Shown here piece after piece: positions 1,209-44,845 of a stretch of 44,845 nucleotides of DNA. The DNA is from a virus, in IMG/VR virus record IMGVR_UViG_3300025009_000029, positions 1 through 44,845 of that record. One strand, written 5' to 3'. Position 1 is the stretch's first letter; every line of letters starts with the position of its first letter. The notes below the pieces were generated by a model that saw nothing but the letters and a program-made list of their open reading frames with translations, ran no database searches and was not told the DNA's origin. The position numbers and the translations under genes are program-made.

Positions 1209-1706
1209 TTATTCGATTTTTAGGGGGTAGTTCAACTGTGCATACTGTCCAAACAATTCTAATGCTTTTTTGTCATACGCCCTGGCTGCGTCATCTAGGT
1301 TTGCGAAGAATCCTATGTCTATATTCTTGTAGTTGTGTTTGATATGCGCCCTGAACGGCTTCGATTTTATACACTTGGATATTGAAACTCCCTTAATCAT
1401 ACCGAGAGTGGTTGGGGCGTGCTTTATTCTGTTACGACAATTCTCTTGATTTGTGCATATACGAAGATTCTCTTTGCGGTTGTCTAATCCATTATGGTTG
1501 ATATGATCTATATACATACCCTCTGGACAATCCATAATAACTCTGTGCATAAACTCTGTAAGCCTGCGTCCTCCGTGATAAACGTCTCGCTTGGCATAGT
1601 TTGCGCGACTTCTTACTGATGTATACCAATGGTGCTTATTGATAGTTTCATAATCTTCATCGTCCACAAGTGCTACAAAACCTTTAGTTAGTTGTATCTC
1701 TTTCAT
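1209..1706 (-). CDS. HNH homing endonuclease with C-terminal AP2-type DNA-binding domain
   Basis: This 165-residue protein has the order expected for a free-standing phage homing nuclease. Residues about 53-92 form an HNH core (MHRVIMD, then IDHINHNGLDNRKENLR, where DHINHNGLDN carries the metal and catalytic histidines and asparagines). Residues about 108-160 resemble an AP2 DNA-binding domain (GVSISKCIKSKPFRAHI, then GFFANLDDAARAYDKKALEL). Such enzymes nick or cut DNA at a recognised site and spread by repair copying. The start at 1706 follows GAGGACAGA. The gene stands alone between non-coding regions, with a highly structured 5' leader (1713-1797), which suggests its expression is controlled separately. 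Confidence 0.92.
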   Translation of the reverse strand: MKEIQLTKGFVALVDDEDYETINKHHWYTSVRSRANYAKRDVYHGGRRLTEFMHRVIMDCPEGMYIDHINHNGLDNRKENLRICTNQENCRNRIKHAPTTLGMIKGVSISKCIKSKPFRAHIKHNYKNIDIGFFANLDDAARAYDKKALELFGQYAQLNYPLKIE

Positions 1707-1712
1707 TCTGTC

Positions 1713-1797
1713 CTCTATATAGAGCCACTCCCCCTATAGTGTTAAGCCTATAGAGAGAGTGGCGGTGTTTCCTAATTTGACATTGCTTAACCAATGT
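1713..1797 (-). promoter_or_regulatory. Structured 5' leader of the HNH-AP2 gene with complementary hairpin loops
   Basis: Read leftward, the leader forms hairpin 1 (1797-1792 with 1785-1780, loop GUUAAG) and hairpin 2 (1763-1748 with 1739-1724). Hairpin 2 is a continuous 16-bp stem only in the leftward RNA, because two positions pair as G-U. Its loop GCUUAACA contains CUUAAC, the exact complement of the whole loop of hairpin 1. A 12-bp palindrome, CTCTATATAGAG (1713-1724), follows and ends at the ribosome site. The two loops could kiss and change access to the start at 1706. Confidence 0.6.
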
Positions 1798-1803
1798 AGT
1801 CCT

Positions 1804-1832
1804 ATTATACACCTAATGCAAAATGGGCGCTA
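1804..1832 (-). promoter_or_regulatory. Candidate leftward promoter for the HNH-AP2 gene
   Basis: On the - strand, TAGCGC (complement of 1827-1832), a 17-base spacer and a consensus TATAAT (complement of 1804-1809) precede the structured leader. Only the -10 box is strong. The predicted start near 1797 coincides with the first base of hairpin 1 of the leader. Confidence 0.4.
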
Positions 1833-4078: not shown

Positions 4079-4768
4079 ATGAACAGCGCACAGAGACTAT
4101 TGAAAGAACAAGCCTACAGGCGAAGATTGCTGGGGATGTTGGGGGGCGGGGCGGTTGCTCCTGCTGTTCCCTGGTACTTGGCTGGCGGGATTCCAGAAGC
4201 TAATTGTATTGGGGCATATAAAGCCATCAACGTGGTCGACCAAGCCACAAGCTACGACAACCTCACTGGCAATGCCACTTATGACCTGACAACCTCTGCT
4301 GCACCTACATGGAACGGTACAGACGGTTGGATATTTGACGGTATCTCTCAATTCCTAAATACTGCTATTGCGGCAGTTCTTAATCAAAACTGGTCAATGG
4401 CGGTGAGATTCACCAATGGCACAACGTCATCCATGCTTGCTGGAGTGACCAATTCTGGAAATCCCGACTTTTATCTTCAAACCAGTAACTTTGCCCATGT
4501 GAATGTGCTGACAATCAGCCCTGCAATAACCTCTGGTATTTTGATGATATGCGGAAAAAACTGCTATGCAGAAACCACTCTTAAGGGAACTCTCGCGGCA
4601 GCAACCGCTACAAATACAAACCCAATTCGTATTGGCGCTGTAGGCGCAGCCACCCCAACCACGTTTGGCGTAAGCAAAATTCAGGCTTACGCGGTTTGGG
4701 ACATCGACATTTCGGCTTATCAAGGGGCGGTACACGCGGCTATGGCTGCGCTTCCGGCAACCCCTTAG
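4079..4768 (+). CDS. LamG/concanavalin-A-like receptor-binding type protein (229 aa)
   Basis: After a basic, Gly-rich start (residues 1-35), the protein continues with IPEANCIGAYKAINVVD and a jelly-roll pattern of beta strands (GWIFDGISQFLNT, WSMAVRFT, IRIGAVGA, KIQAYAVWDIDISAY). This matches the LamG-like domains common at the tips of phage fibres, which bind surface sugars. It comes just before a beta-helix protein and before the terminase genes, an unusual place for receptor-binding genes. The region after its stop codes, in the -1 frame, for what looks like the missing start of the next protein (see findings). Confidence 0.75.
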   Translation: MNSAQRLLKEQAYRRRLLGMLGGGAVAPAVPWYLAGGIPEANCIGAYKAINVVDQATSYDNLTGNATYDLTTSAAPTWNGTDGWIFDGISQFLNTAIAAVLNQNWSMAVRFTNGTTSSMLAGVTNSGNPDFYLQTSNFAHVNVLTISPAITSGILMICGKNCYAETTLKGTLAAATATNTNPIRIGAVGAATPTTFGVSKIQAYAVWDIDISAYQGAVHAAMAALPATP

Positions 4769-10998: not shown

Positions 10999-13900
10999 TT
11001 GGCAGACCAACCGATTTACAAGGGCTATGCGCCAGGTAAAAAACCGCCTCTAGCCAAACAACCATCTAAACCTATCATACTTCCTTCTGTGGAGAAGAAT
11101 ACTCCTATGACAGAGGAAGATCGTCAGGCGTTCTATAAGATGTCTAACGCCGAGAAGATGTCATATATCTCTCAAAGGCAAAAAGGCTTCAAGACTGACG
11201 CTGATTACTTCCCTAAAAACCCATTACAAAATGTTCACGTAATGAATCAGGCTAGGGATATGAACGTATCCATCTATCCTACTCTACCCGGAATGGGGGC
11301 GAATGGATGGGAGTATCAGAAACAAAATACCAATAGACCGATAGGTTTCTGGGAGAATCCTCAACGTATTGCTCGTTTCAAGGATTACATTGACGCTAAC
11401 CCCGATGCCGTTCTCCCTACGTGGCTGGATAAAGATGTTATTAACTCTGCTTATTCCTATTTACAATATGCCAATCATAATAAACCAGTACAGGAATGGG
11501 GAGTGCTTACTGACCAAGACCCCATTACAGATGCCTTACGAAGTCTACCAGAACCGGAGAATCCGAGAGCGATTGACCCTCTAGTAACTGATTATGACCT
11601 TGAAAAGACGGTGAATCCAGAGGATTTGACCGCTTATCAAAGGGCATTGTATGGCTTTATGTCTCCACAACCAGGCAAGTTCTCTGTTGGTGCTGTGGCA
11701 CAGACAGGACTATCCGCTTTAGGTACTGGCGGTGGTACGTCATTCGTGTTACAAAAACTTACCGGATTGCTACAAACTATAGGGATTACAAAGAATCCTG
11801 CTATGTTTGCTCAACCTGCTGGTATTGCTGGAGCAGTTATCTTTGGTTCTGCTACGTGGTGGCAGATGCAGACAGGGGAAGAATTAGGGGCTGTAAATAC
11901 TCTCCGTTGGCTTGTCGCTCCCCCAGGGCTTCGACTGACAAAACTCGGTAAACAGATAGATCAGAAAGTTATTGATATTATTGATTCCAAACCAGGACTT
12001 CGGGAGTGGTTGGAACAATACAATCCTATTCAGTTCAAGTACGGACAAGAAGCCATTGCCAAAGCGTTCAATGTATTCTCTGAAATGGTCGCTGGTGTTC
12101 TCGGTGTTGTGGCACAAGCAACGTCTGGGGACGAAGATTTTAGTGAAGTTGCAAAGAATCTGGGGGCTGCATATAAGGCGGGTAAGTTATCTTATGTGGC
12201 TTATGGAAAGACAAAGAACCCACTACTTCCTTTGAGTGAGGGAAAGCCACTTGAAGAAGGAAAAATGTGGGACATATCTTCTGGTGAAAACAAACCTGTT
12301 GATATTCCTTCTGGATTTACAGTTGAGGCAACTGCTCTTGATAGACTTCGCAACCAGATAGTTTCTGATCCTGACAACTATAAGAAGTATAAACAAGAGT
12401 TCATTACGAGATTTGGGGTTGAGGGACAGTTGAATGATTTTGTCCTGCAGACCTTACTCGACCCAATGAACGCTGCTCCATATACCAATGCAAAGTTAGT
12501 TGAATTTGCCGGAAAGAAAACAAACAATCCCGCTATGCAGTACGCAGGTAAATTCTCACAGGGCAATCCTGTTGTAGATGCTATTCCATTCCCGTTCAAC
12601 GCAGGGGTTGAGTTACTTTCAGGCGGTAGGTTACAGGGATCGAAGGGTTTTGTTGGCGCTATGGATGCTTACAAAAACTTCATTAATGGGAACATCCCTG
12701 CCAATATGAAAGGCAAGATACCTTATAAAGCACCAGCAGACTACACAAGGTTGGAGAAACTTATTGGTGGTTTGAATGAGGATGGCGTACCCAAGAACTT
12801 ATCGCCACAAGACTTTAGCAAGAAGGCTGTTGAAAATGCAAGCGAGTTGATGCCTGATGCCAAAGCACTTCTATGGTCCTACACACTAACAGACAGGCTT
12901 TACTTCTTGTGGGATTACTCTGGAAAAGATGTTGACGCTTTCTTGAAACTTGTTCAAGCCAGTTCACAGGCTGACCCGAAGTTAGTCAAGGAACAGATTG
13001 CAAGCATATTCAATGAATCTGGGCTACCGGAAGATTATATGGATGCCCGTCAGTTCAATTCCCCTATTGCTGCTGCGCTTGCTACTGGACTTAAAAAGGC
13101 GGTTGATAGTGGCGACATGAGTATGATCGTGCAGAAGTTCCAGGCTACCGCAGAGAACAGAATGAATTTACAACGGTATGCCAGTTTCTTTGGGACTACT
13201 GATGCTAAACTTATCAAGGACTACAAAGACGGTAAGATAAACTACGACAATCTTATAAAACAACTGTCTCTCGATCCAATGAAAGCAGAGATAGCAAAAG
13301 TATTATTCCCGAATGGCGATTCTACGATGTTCAAGATTGATATGGACATCTTCTCAAAGGGGAATACAGCTTACAACGATTCTATGTTGGGGCTGGAAAT
13401 TATCAATCATATCAATAACTCGTTGGATGATTTTGTAATCAATCGGTTTGGCATAAAGATGGACGACCCATTGTGGATGAGGCTGAACCACACTATGAAG
13501 GGGCTACAATCCCTTGCTTTGTTGTCTATGAACCCAAGATACTTTATCTATAACACTATGAACAATATGATTACCCGTATTGCTTCTAATAACTATGGGT
13601 ATACAGACTTCAAGAAGTTTGTGGATACTTATGAACCATTTGTTTCTCGCCAAGATATTGAGGGTGGGTTATCACAGGACTTACTAAACAACGCCAACGT
13701 CTTGTTGAAAGGCAAGAACCAGAAGGCTAAAGGAAGTGCTGTTCTTGAACGTGGTGTTGATAAGATCACTAGAAAACTCGGCGATGTATTGGGGTTTGCA
13801 ACTAAAGCAAGTAGATGGAATGAGAAGTTTGAATCCAGACAGTCCTTCGCTATTGAGTATATCAACGCATTTGGGAAGATTCGTAGGGTTGAGTTGCCAG

Positions 13901-16900
13901 CAGAGTTAATGCGTAATCTTCCAGAGGGTATTTCTGGGCGGGTTGCAAAGATTATTGAGGGCGCAACAAAGACCACAGACCTTGACAATGTATGGACACA
14001 CATCTCCGATCCCGTTATTGCTAAAGAAGTCATTGATAGTGTGTTGTCAGACTTTGCCAATTCAAACGATAAGATGGCTGTAACTGCTGATATGTATAAA
14101 GATACCCTCATAAAGACAGGTATCTATGACGAGATCGTGGATGGGTTGAAGAATGTAAAGTCTATCAGAGATATTGCCGATGTTTTCGATAACATTGATA
14201 ATCACTTCCAGGATTATCTTAATAAGTTAACCCAGAACGATATTGAAACACGCATACCTGACGTTGCTAATAGAGTAAAAGCAGAAGGACTACCCGCCGC
14301 CCTCTCAATGTTTAGCGATATGACAATGATGCGTGAAGCAACTATCGCTGGTAAGTGGCAGGCGTTAGACAACCTCTTTGCTCTGCGTGGTGTTGTAGAT
14401 GATGCTGTTTGGCACAAGATGTTCGACAGCCAAATGAAAGCCAACCAAGCAGAGTTTACCAGGCAATCTCAATGGCAAGAGGCTACTTACGAAGGGCTGT
14501 TAGACGCTCTAGGAAAGTCAGACCTTCCAGAAGCCAAAGCCTTCTTAAGTTCATTCAAAGCAGGTAACGACAACTTCTCCAGTTTCTTCAATGAGAAGAT
14601 GAGATTGTGGCAGGAACACGCTGACAGAACAAAAACGCTTACACAGGAAGCAAGGAATATCGACTATAAGGCTACAGAAGCAACCGTAGATGCTCTATGG
14701 AAACAGACTACAGAAAAAGACTTCGCATTACAGTCAGAAGCAGACCGAGCGTTTATAGCATTGAGTGGTGGCGATCCTAAAGTAGTAGTGTGGCGTGGCG
14801 AGTTAGGGAAAATCAGATTAAAGATAAACTCGGAGATGTCTACGTTCAGGGCTTCTCTCAAAGAGTTTACCACAATGACCATTGCACAAAAGAATCAACT
14901 CTACAACAAGTTCATCACAGAAACATATATGGACTTGCAGAGACAGTATAAAGATTTAGAGATGGATGGCGCTCACGGGCTACGCAATGACACACAAGTA
15001 CAAAACTCAATACTCGGAAAAGAAACAAGGGATTTGAACTGGAAAGATATTCCTTCTAACAACCCAGAGTTTAGTGCATTTTTAGACAAGTACCTACCTG
15101 AACAAGAAGGCGTACAAAGATTACCGTTTGGAAGAAGCGAGACGGTTGATATAGTTTCTAAACAAACTGGAAGAAATATTGTTGATATTGGAAATGCAAG
15201 TGAAGCAGAGACATCTATTGTTCTTCGGGCAATATTAGCCAACAACAACGATATTCCGCAAGGCGTTGATATTATCTTTGGACACGGAACTGGAACTGGT
15301 GATACGTGGAGATTTGTCAATGGCGAGAACGTATACGATGTTGTGGCAAGGTTATCTCCAAATAAAAAGGCGTTTGTAATCGCTTGTGACGACACCAATA
15401 AAAGGAATTTCGGTACAGCGCAAGGCGTTATGGTTGACGGCGTAAATAGAAGTTTTACCGATGTTCAACCACTAGGCACTACACCAAGCACCTTGAATCA
15501 GGGTGAGGTAATGGGCGAGGGAAGTAACTTATTCCTTGTAAGTTTACTCGGAAGTCTACGACAAAAAGCCATAGACGACTTCAACACTCCCAGGGCGAAA
15601 GAGGGTATTCCACAAGAGGCTATCCCCGCTTTCAAGAAGTTTATTGCACAGGAGAAACAAAACCTAGCCAGTGACAAGTTGTTTGCTCAAACGTGGGCTG
15701 AATCGCAACGTGATTTTGTGATGCTCAACTACACCAAAAAGACAAACTTTGACAACACACTGTCCACTATCTTCCCGTATCAATTCTGGTACACCAATAC
15801 CATGCGTAATTGGGCTTTACGAATGATTGATCGACCTGCTATTTTCAACCAGTATTTCAGGTACAGACAGGCGCAAGAGAATCTACAAAAGGCTGGAATC
15901 CCTGCAAGGTTGGAGGGAAAGATGAGCGCCTTTGCACCCTACTTACCTGATTGGATGGGAGATACCTTATGGTCTGATCCGATGGGACAGATATATCCAT
16001 TCTCACAAGCCCTACAACCTTTCAAGAACATTATGGGGTTGCAGGAAGATTTGACCACAAGCGCAGGTTACATCCTGAACGATATGGTAAAGGCTGGAAA
16101 GATAAGCAAGGCAGAAGCCACAGAAGCCAAAACAAAGATGTCTGGTGACTTGTGGAATCAGGCTATGGCACAGGCTACAGATGAAAGCGCTTTGTCAGAC
16201 CCATCCAGTATGGTTGGTTTAATGATGCAACCTGGTATGCACTGGGATATTCTCTCGAAACTTGTTACTGGTAATCAAGACAAGATAAGCCCCACCCCTG
16301 CTTACAGAACAGGTCAGGCAATAGAACAACTAGGAACTTACGCAGGTGTAAATGCTAAGCCTCTCACTTGGTTGGAAACTAACGCAAGGAAAGCCATTGG
16401 AATGTCTCAATCTGTTGCAAAATACGGACAATTCGGTGACTACTACGTTGAAAGAATGTTATCCAATATGGCATTTGAGGGAACTATTTCCTCTAAAGAA
16501 GCAAGAGAAGCAATGGTAACACACGCTGGAAGTGCTTGGGAACAGGCAGATAAACGAGTTATGGAAGAAATAACCCTGAAACAACCAGGTATGCTTCCCG
16601 TAGTTGGCGCTATCAACGGTGCTAATTTTTGGCAGATCAGTTCGGCAACATTCAAGTCTCTATTCCCACAGGGTTTACTTCCACAAGGCGAACTTATCTA
16701 CAAGGGACAGCAACAAGAATACAACCTGGCTTGGGAGAAGTATAACGCCGGAGATAAGTCGGCACTATCAGACTTCTATAATGAACATCCTGAATATAAA
16801 ACAAGAAGCGCTTTGTACACCAAAGACCCAGAAGCCAGGATGAAGCAATACATCATTAGTGACATTTGGGATAGTTATGGTGCTAGTGGAAGCGCAAACA

Positions 16901-17772
16901 AAAGCCTATTGAGAGATGCTCTCGGAGAGGACTTTGAAAAAGCGTTCCTACAAGGATCAGCAGAAACTCAATCCGCTATTCCGCTAGAAACTCTAATCAT
17001 TTGGTCAAGGAAGATTGGCAATACTATTCCCAAACCAGAAGCAATGCCTGATTTTTCAGCACCAGAAGGCGTTACAAATATAGAGTTGTGGAGTAAGGAC
17101 ATTGCAACTTCCTATGACCAGTATGTAAAAGAGAGAGAAGCAATGTTCCCGCTTTACTACTCTTTACAAACCGCGTTCTTTGATCTACCGAAGTCTGAAC
17201 AATCTGCCTTCCTAAAATCCAATCCCTCTTTGAAAGAGTATTGGGACTGGAAAGAAAAGTATGAGATAGACCATCCTGAATTATCGCCTGTATTTGCAAG
17301 TCAACAGATGGTGGATGTATCTAAGAATCCTGACGTTACTCTAAAAGGTTTCGACCCCGAACTCCTGAAACAACTAAACGACTACTACTCCGGTATTCAA
17401 ATGACCTCTGGAGCGTGGGAGATGTTAGGCTATGAATGGGAGCAACTCGGCAGACCTTATGGGACTTTGAAGAAATGGATGTCAAAGGTTATCGAACCTG
17501 CGATCACGGGCAAGAGCGTACCGCAGGATAGTTTCTGGACTGATGGTAATTCGGCAGTATATGGTGCTTACAAACAAGAACTTGAAAGCCGTTACCCGAC
17601 CTACTCCAGTCTGAATGAAACATATTGGAACTTGCCTAAAAACCAGAGAGATGCTTTTGTAGATGCCAACCCCGTGCTGCAAGAAGCCTGGGATTGGAAG
17701 GAGGATTACTTATCGAGCCATCCAGAGGTAAGAAGTATTTTAGAGTATATTAGCTCAAAATACGGTAATTAA
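10999..17772 (+). CDS. Giant internal virion protein with embedded clan-CD-protease-like segment (2257 aa)
   Basis: TTG at 10999 follows GGAGAATCTAA and directly abuts the previous stop. At 2,257 residues this is by far the largest gene. A hydrophobic stretch at about 225-290 could cross a membrane. Long helical regions carry an IFPYQFWYTNTMRNWALR segment typical of large polyvalent or ejection proteins. Residues 1427-1465 read FGHGTGTGD ... FVIACDD, with His1429 and Cys1463 placed as in clan CD cysteine peptidases. The C-terminus has two copies of a roughly 65-residue repeat (about 2039-2105 and 2191-2257) with WDWKExY and HPE. It probably enters the cell with DNA to build a channel, like T7 gp16 or N4 virion proteins. 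Confidence 0.85.
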   Translation: MADQPIYKGYAPGKKPPLAKQPSKPIILPSVEKNTPMTEEDRQAFYKMSNAEKMSYISQRQKGFKTDADYFPKNPLQNVHVMNQARDMNVSIYPTLPGMGANGWEYQKQNTNRPIGFWENPQRIARFKDYIDANPDAVLPTWLDKDVINSAYSYLQYANHNKPVQEWGVLTDQDPITDALRSLPEPENPRAIDPLVTDYDLEKTVNPEDLTAYQRALYGFMSPQPGKFSVGAVAQTGLSALGTGGGTSFVLQKLTGLLQTIGITKNPAMFAQPAGIAGAVIFGSATWWQMQTGEELGAVNTLRWLVAPPGLRLTKLGKQIDQKVIDIIDSKPGLREWLEQYNPIQFKYGQEAIAKAFNVFSEMVAGVLGVVAQATSGDEDFSEVAKNLGAAYKAGKLSYVAYGKTKNPLLPLSEGKPLEEGKMWDISSGENKPVDIPSGFTVEATALDRLRNQIVSDPDNYKKYKQEFITRFGVEGQLNDFVLQTLLDPMNAAPYTNAKLVEFAGKKTNNPAMQYAGKFSQGNPVVDAIPFPFNAGVELLSGGRLQGSKGFVGAMDAYKNFINGNIPANMKGKIPYKAPADYTRLEKLIGGLNEDGVPKNLSPQDFSKKAVENASELMPDAKALLWSYTLTDRLYFLWDYSGKDVDAFLKLVQASSQADPKLVKEQIASIFNESGLPEDYMDARQFNSPIAAALATGLKKAVDSGDMSMIVQKFQATAENRMNLQRYASFFGTTDAKLIKDYKDGKINYDNLIKQLSLDPMKAEIAKVLFPNGDSTMFKIDMDIFSKGNTAYNDSMLGLEIINHINNSLDDFVINRFGIKMDDPLWMRLNHTMKGLQSLALLSMNPRYFIYNTMNNMITRIASNNYGYTDFKKFVDTYEPFVSRQDIEGGLSQDLLNNANVLLKGKNQKAKGSAVLERGVDKITRKLGDVLGFATKASRWNEKFESRQSFAIEYINAFGKIRRVELPAELMRNLPEGISGRVAKIIEGATKTTDLDNVWTHISDPVIAKEVIDSVLSDFANSNDKMAVTADMYKDTLIKTGIYDEIVDGLKNVKSIRDIADVFDNIDNHFQDYLNKLTQNDIETRIPDVANRVKAEGLPAALSMFSDMTMMREATIAGKWQALDNLFALRGVVDDAVWHKMFDSQMKANQAEFTRQSQWQEATYEGLLDALGKSDLPEAKAFLSSFKAGNDNFSSFFNEKMRLWQEHADRTKTLTQEARNIDYKATEATVDALWKQTTEKDFALQSEADRAFIALSGGDPKVVVWRGELGKIRLKINSEMSTFRASLKEFTTMTIAQKNQLYNKFITETYMDLQRQYKDLEMDGAHGLRNDTQVQNSILGKETRDLNWKDIPSNNPEFSAFLDKYLPEQEGVQRLPFGRSETVDIVSKQTGRNIVDIGNASEAETSIVLRAILANNNDIPQGVDIIFGHGTGTGDTWRFVNGENVYDVVARLSPNKKAFVIACDDTNKRNFGTAQGVMVDGVNRSFTDVQPLGTTPSTLNQGEVMGEGSNLFLVSLLGSLRQKAIDDFNTPRAKEGIPQEAIPAFKKFIAQEKQNLASDKLFAQTWAESQRDFVMLNYTKKTNFDNTLSTIFPYQFWYTNTMRNWALRMIDRPAIFNQYFRYRQAQENLQKAGIPARLEGKMSAFAPYLPDWMGDTLWSDPMGQIYPFSQALQPFKNIMGLQEDLTTSAGYILNDMVKAGKISKAEATEAKTKMSGDLWNQAMAQATDESALSDPSSMVGLMMQPGMHWDILSKLVTGNQDKISPTPAYRTGQAIEQLGTYAGVNAKPLTWLETNARKAIGMSQSVAKYGQFGDYYVERMLSNMAFEGTISSKEAREAMVTHAGSAWEQADKRVMEEITLKQPGMLPVVGAINGANFWQISSATFKSLFPQGLLPQGELIYKGQQQEYNLAWEKYNAGDKSALSDFYNEHPEYKTRSALYTKDPEARMKQYIISDIWDSYGASGSANKSLLRDALGEDFEKAFLQGSAETQSAIPLETLIIWSRKIGNTIPKPEAMPDFSAPEGVTNIELWSKDIATSYDQYVKEREAMFPLYYSLQTAFFDLPKSEQSAFLKSNPSLKEYWDWKEKYEIDHPELSPVFASQQMVDVSKNPDVTLKGFDPELLKQLNDYYSGIQMTSGAWEMLGYEWEQLGRPYGTLKKWMSKVIEPAITGKSVPQDSFWTDGNSAVYGAYKQELESRYPTYSSLNETYWNLPKNQRDAFVDANPVLQEAWDWKEDYLSSHPEVRSILEYISSKYGN

Positions 17773-44595: not shown

Positions 44596-44793
44596 CTAAT
44601 GGAATAATTCTTTGTTTGCCGTAACTGCGTTATCATTACACAGCTTCAAAAACTTACCGGCCTTCACAAGCTCATTGTGCTTATGCAACCATTGTGCGTT
44701 TTGATCTAATTGCCATTTATTGAAGCACTCATTACAAGCGGTAAAATGTAACCCGTGTTTGGTGCAAAAACCGCGATCTAAAATATTATCCAT
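44596..44793 (-). CDS. Small zinc-finger-like protein crossing the circular junction (65 aa)
   Basis: Full copy of the gene cut at the left edge. FCTKHGLHFTACNECFNKWQ has a CxxHxxxxxxxCxxC pattern at residues 9-23 that would bind zinc; the rest is helical (LDQNAQWLHKHNELVKAGKF). The leader is AAGGGAAATAACA. In the circle it follows the 61-residue protein at 100-285 with a 24-base gap. Confidence 0.72.
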   Translation of the reverse strand: MDNILDRGFCTKHGLHFTACNECFNKWQLDQNAQWLHKHNELVKAGKFLKLCNDNAVTANKELFH

Positions 44794-44845
44794 TGTTATT
44801 TCCCTTTACTATATAGATTATGCTATACGGCCGGAGCCAGGTTTG
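44719..44845. repeat. Terminal direct repeat, right copy (identical to 1-127)
   Basis: Exact copy of bases 1-127. Joining the two copies gives a circle of 44,718 bases, and the leftward operon then runs unbroken from 1706 across the junction to 27595. Confidence 0.97.

Follow-up and report, generated by a model that had tools for sequence, protein, structure and literature searches.

Overproduction of homing endonucleases is thought to be harmful. How free-standing homing endonucleases are restrained outside the T4-like phages is, to our knowledge, little known. In T-even phages, regulation of homing endonuclease genes by RNA structures is well established (PMC2988022). The genes of I-TevI, I-TevII, I-TevIII, segB and Aeh1 mobE carry leader hairpins that hide the ribosome site, and these hairpins act on read-through transcripts (PMC2988022). 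In seg43(25) of Aeromonas phage 25, a very stable hairpin is located directly upstream of the ribosome site and does not sequester it (PMC2988022).

The locus described here belongs to the viral record IMGVR_UViG_3300025009_000029, analysed at its whole length of 44,845 nucleotides (the window). An exact direct terminal repeat of 127 bases (1-127 and 44719-44845) makes it likely that the record represents the complete genome of a phage, and an open frame of 2,257 codons (10999-17772) perhaps codes for a large virion protein.

Two hairpins upstream of an HNH-AP2 gene

Near the left end of the window lies a homing endonuclease gene of the HNH-AP2 type (Table 1). Its product carries an AP2-like domain at the C-terminus; the AP2 match is weak in this protein and clearer in the corresponding protein of a related contig, L022. 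The profile of the HNH-AP2 family matches plant AP2/ERF domains as well as the HNH homing endonuclease structure 1u3e.

Table 1. Positions of the leader and nuclease gene in the window (hairpin loops in parentheses)
Feature	Position	Strand	Sequence or size	Basis and remarks
-10 box	1804..1809	-	TATAAT	sequence; 6 nt between box and H1
Hairpin H1	1797-1780	-	ACAUUG(GUUAAG)CAAUGU, 6 bp	predicted fold; six-base loop GUUAAG at 1791-1786
H1-H2 linker	1764..1779	-	CAAAUUAGGAAACACC, 16 nt	sequence
Hairpin H2	1763-1724	-	GCCACUCUCUCUAUAG(GCUUAACA)CUAUAGGGGGAGUGGC, 16 bp	predicted fold
H2, 5' arm	1763-1748	-
H2, loop	1747-1740	-	GCUUAACA
H2, 3' arm	1739-1724	-
Palindrome	1713..1724	-	CTCTATATAGAG, 12 bp	sequence; not a conserved part
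Shine-Dalgarno-like motif	1711..1715	-	GAGGA	about 9 nt past H2, in a short AU-rich stretch
HNH-AP2 homing endonuclease gene	1209..1706	-	165 aa	HNH_3 Pfam match

A first-pass annotation of the sequence had placed two hairpins with complementary loops in the leader of this gene. Their coordinates, and the complementarity of the H1 loop GUUAAG to CUUAAC (1746-1741) inside the H2 loop, hold base by base. The six pairing bases of the H2 loop are flanked by G and A (G-CUUAAC-A), so that a closing G-A pair is possible. H1 and H2 are mutually compatible in the leader, and the contact between them, in the window as in L022, is short and A-U rich, with a loop duplex of -5 to -8 kcal/mol. The minimum free energy of the leader is -34.3 kcal/mol compared with -17.8 +/- 3.0 in shuffled sequences (z = -5.4), and positions 1797-1724 alone reach z = -6.9 against shuffles. 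When both strands of the window were scanned for neighbouring hairpins with six complementary loop bases, this was the only pair with comparable stem length. Two pairs of H2 had been said to form solely as G-U in the leftward RNA; they are real, and the opposite strand would have A-C in their places.

The distance between the TATAAT box and H1 places the expected transcript start at H1 or just 5' of it. Of the promoter proposed earlier, the -10 box is present, whereas a good -35 box is absent and the TATAAT is not among the 9-of-12 promoter matches. The 12-bp palindrome named in the annotation likewise exists in the DNA, but the predicted fold does not contain the corresponding RNA hairpin, and in L022 the palindrome itself is not conserved, being reduced to an 8-bp core, TTATATAA. 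Overlapping palindromes of operator-like appearance, ACCTATAATATAGGT and GGTTATAACC, are located upstream of the promoter at 1842-1863. The Shine-Dalgarno-like motif is unpaired in both the minimum free energy and the centroid folds, and the AUG of the gene, at 1706, lies 17 nt past H2. The tail of H2, UCUAUAUA, contains no real U-run and was not flagged as a terminator, which makes termination in the window doubtful.

The annotation knew of no named class for the element, and the locus indeed falls outside every Rfam family: tRNA was the only match above the gathering threshold in the whole window, and a permissive search restricted to 1500-2100 yielded nothing credible. The leader DNA had no matches in phages and plasmids, and a phage collection contained no close match to the window locus.

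Conservation and insertion in related contigs

A terminase search of IMG/VR yielded four short contigs, L021-L024, with 77% identity. Among them only L022 possesses the same leader, which precedes an HNH-AP2 gene of its own; the two nucleases share 48% amino acid identity. Of the earlier view, the part that is supported is a minus-strand RNA element that belongs with the HNH-AP2 gene and contains a loop-loop contact; its role as a switch or copy-control-like element is putative. Both loops are identical in L022 and the linker is again 16 nt long. Among the counted stem positions, three pairs differ in both partners and three in one partner only. In H1, one pair is compensated, one turns from U-A to U-G and the outermost pair is broken, the only break observed; H2 shows two double-sided and two one-sided changes and no broken pair. 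The outermost pair of H2 shows a fourth double change, from G-C to A-U; an alignment gap hides it, and it was left out of the count. The one-sided changes yield G-U pairs on the minus-strand RNA.

The stems thus change in pairs, as sought in the proposed covariation check, while the loops are preserved; the loops being invariant, the contact itself shows no covariation between these two sequences. Paired cells amount to 98% in the window and L022, against 36-53% when the partners are slid by 1-3 columns. A column shuffle is not significant with two sequences (64/500), so that conservation is argued from the slide control together with the independent leaders described below. An exact-loop scan of IMG/VR gave 59 stretches, and both stems were found only in L022; the remaining stretches therefore look like chance.

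L023 is devoid of promoter, leader and nuclease, and shares with L022 the sequences that flank the cassette there, GGACAAGAGAGGAGGGATTGTCCTGC... and AAATAGAATAAATGTTCG.... Its cassette-free site (4663-4740) aligns to positions 155-880 of L022, and promoter, leader and gene consequently appear to have entered L022 as one insertion. The window carries this unit at another place, beyond two tRNA genes.

Leaders of the same layout across HNH-AP2 genes

Non-redundant leaders of HNH-AP2 genes, 141 in number, were collected from IMG/VR and searched with fixed criteria for kissing hairpins: H1 of at least 5 bp, H2 of at least 9 bp whose end lies at a distance of 5-45 nt from the start codon, and at least 6 contiguous loop-loop pairs. 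The window leader has this arrangement and a -10 element as well (TATAAT, 6 nt 5' of the structure). Kissing hairpins occur in 7 of the 141 leaders and in none of 2,820 shuffles; the single match among 400 control genes is the HNH leader of L142 itself. The kissing loops are GTTAAG in the window and L022, CCGCGAG in L142, GGGACTGG in L185, TTCACGG in L126, TGGTCAGA in L085 and AGTCAG in L194. Besides the pair common to the window and L022, the loop pairs of the five other leaders differ and complementarity is kept in each, so that the paired loop changes sought after the first annotation do exist, in unrelated phages. The linker between the hairpins measures 16-17 nt in five of the seven.

In 16 further leaders the design takes the form of a pseudoknot: the loop of the hairpin nearest the ribosome site pairs with a 5'-terminal segment of about 10-21 bases. 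The corresponding counts are 11 of 2,820 shuffles (0.4%) and 5 of 400 controls. From 5' to 3', a leader of the class would consist of promoter, A5 (either within a small hairpin loop or as a longer strand), B5, A3 and B3, then, in many cases, U-rich sequence, and finally the ribosome site and the start codon; B5 and B3 would form the long hairpin, and A3, its loop segment, would pair back to A5. The criteria were set on the first loci, and 50 newly added leaders served as a hold-out, with 8 positives against 5 of 399 controls (P = 1.2e-5). Because the controls are open frames of the same contigs and not all of them real genes, shuffles were relied on as well. Among 39 HNH leaders with a strong hairpin next to the ribosome site, the loop of that hairpin shows complementarity to upstream leader sequence at p <= 0.02 in 16 cases, against an expectation of 0.8; matched controls gave 2 of 8, a number too small for comparison.

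Position relative to the transcript and the gene is another common trait. A -10 element, defined as at least five of six bases of TATAAT or the Bacteroidota-type TAnnTTTG, precedes the structure by at most 16 nt in 18 of the 23 leaders of the class and in 6% of shuffles. The TAnnTTTG boxes of L126 and L085 we take to be promoters of the Bacteroidota type. Where a box was found, H1 or A5 begins 0-9 nt past it, and across the class H2 or B ends 9-22 nt upstream of the start codon. The six bases past the second hairpin are U in 61% of cases against a background of 30%, and several B stems resemble intrinsic terminators with GGAG directly after. In a strand-symmetric count, an excess of G-U over A-C pairs is weak across the class (26 against 15, p = 0.06) and suggestive only. 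One contig, L256, carries two paralogous HNH-AP2 genes (at 2001 and 2992; 123 of 187 aligned columns identical) whose promoter and ribosome-site regions are alike, whereas their A and B helices differ in sequence, each being self-complementary.

The design is absent from about 84% of HNH-AP2 genes. Those examined in cultured phages, plasmids and bacterial genomes are mostly in operons and lack it, and some other HNH leaders contain plain terminator-like hairpins. On a weakly resolved tree of 89 nucleases the leaders are scattered, with 15 changes for 19 labelled rows. One HNH-AP2 gene, in L127, has the int-alpA RNA (RF02996) as its leader (1911-1979), and the leader of the HNH gene in L001 resembles it by eye, with paired stem changes, below the Rfam threshold. 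An RNA of the RNA-guided nuclease type (omega RNA or HEARO) was rejected as a candidate: there is no Rfam match, the protein is HNH-AP2 and not of IscB/TnpB type, and the loop and helix sequences vary across the class with no conserved scaffold.

Judged from sequence comparison, the class is defined by layout and not by sequence, the letters being free and the pairing kept across phages. Leaders of the same design, differently spelled in unrelated phages, suggest a widespread and undescribed RNA control element of selfish genes. Recognisable by topology alone, such a class would be hard to reach by conserved-sequence searches, which could explain the missing Rfam family; searches of open-access full text on homing endonuclease leaders and pseudoknots turned up no description of it.

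Proposed role and comparison with described systems

We favour, with a probability of about 0.55, the reading that the structure serves a self-contained mobile unit as its 5' leader RNA and has the job of restraining nuclease output during RNA synthesis. As RNA polymerase leaves the promoter, H1 would form at the extreme 5' end, H2 would form next, directly upstream of the ribosome site, and the H2 loop would lock onto the H1 loop. Output might be limited by the second hairpin, by way of pausing or partial termination in leaders that have U-rich sequence behind it, and/or by reduced ribosome loading and altered mRNA life; by such steps, we infer, the leader would hold the nuclease down. Attenuation is plausible where a U-run exists, and a weak proposition for the window itself. 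The A and B strands are disjoint in the window and throughout the class, which favours joint formation, although A3 often abuts B3; for the pseudoknot type we thus lean towards A and B forming together rather than excluding each other.

The same layout might instead serve to protect the mRNA and to provide a ribosome standby site, H1 hindering 5'-end-dependent decay and H2 keeping the ribosome site open. Such a role, which we consider possible though rather unlikely, would suit the start of H1 or A5 close behind the -10 box, the distance of 9-22 nt between the second hairpin and the start codon, and the free ribosome site of the window. A simple 5' hairpin would suffice for it, however, and both the recurrent complementarity of the loop to the 5' end and the U-rich stretch would be left unexplained.

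The U-rich stretch does find a place in a self-sensing attenuator, by analogy with antisense copy control: a putative terminated leader RNA would pair in trans with new transcripts and silence the gene as copies rise, and the helices would diversify against cross-talk. The different helices of the two L256 paralogs are consistent with this, as is the initiation of antisense attenuation by kissing contacts in plasmid pT181 (PMC4878617). Yet terminator/antiterminator pairs share one strand, while A and B occupy separate ones, and H2 of the window has no proper U-run; we hold this explanation to be improbable.

We consider it very improbable that the inverted repeats work at the DNA level, for instance as an operator or as a site bound by a phage repressor or the AP2-HNH protein. 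Palindromes are present, and an operator site of I-TevI is mentioned in PMC2988022, but complementary loops have no part to play in duplex DNA, the one-sided changes between the window and L022 make G-U pairs on the transcribed strand, and the layout tracks the transcript 5' end and the start codon. The least probable origin is chance, or an ordinary terminator belonging to an upstream gene, since, common as short single loop matches and plain terminator-like hairpins of other HNH leaders are, the shuffle and control-gene tests, the paired changes in L022 and the position of the hairpins downstream of the gene's own promoter-like box all speak against them.

Restraint of the nuclease by its leader, the reading we prefer, is made directly testable by the class, and its leaders are a natural collection of kissing and pseudoknot parts that differ from one another. 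A bolder version, to which we give little credence, would see in them a phage-wide class, free of conserved sequence, in which each selfish nuclease gene carries a private loop-to-5'-end lock, diversified against cross-talk; the short leader RNA would either act in trans to count the copies of the element or serve the nuclease as a partner.

Several described systems share single traits with the window leader. The int-alpA RNA also leads an HNH-AP2 gene; its sequence and fold are unlike, and the window gives no match to it. The TAR-R06 kissing complex likewise has six complementary loop bases (PMC3127992), but it is intermolecular and was selected in vitro. A closing G-A pair is discussed for stable loop-loop complexes (Duconge 2000, as cited in PMC3127992), and among the kissing leaders found only those of the window and L022 have G-A flanks. 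Attenuators of the pT181 type combine hairpins with kissing contacts, and a U-tailed hairpin precedes the gene in many members of the class too (PMC4878617); in contrast to them, the window lacks a U-tract terminator, and H1/A and H2/B lack a shared-strand antiterminator.

Closer are the leaders of phage homing endonuclease genes themselves. With the sequestering hairpins of T-even phages the window shares an RNA structure in the leader, directly upstream of the gene. Those hairpins hold the Shine-Dalgarno sequence in the stem, whereas in the window GAGGA is free and the structure begins at the promoter-like box of the gene itself. In seg43(25), as in the window, the ribosome site of the homing endonuclease gene has a hairpin just upstream and is left free. 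The seg43(25) nuclease is segD-like, and the excerpted text of PMC2988022 describes for it no 5' partner hairpin or loop-loop contact. The window leader can accordingly be seen as an arrangement like that of seg43(25) that has a 5' hairpin and a loop lock in addition.
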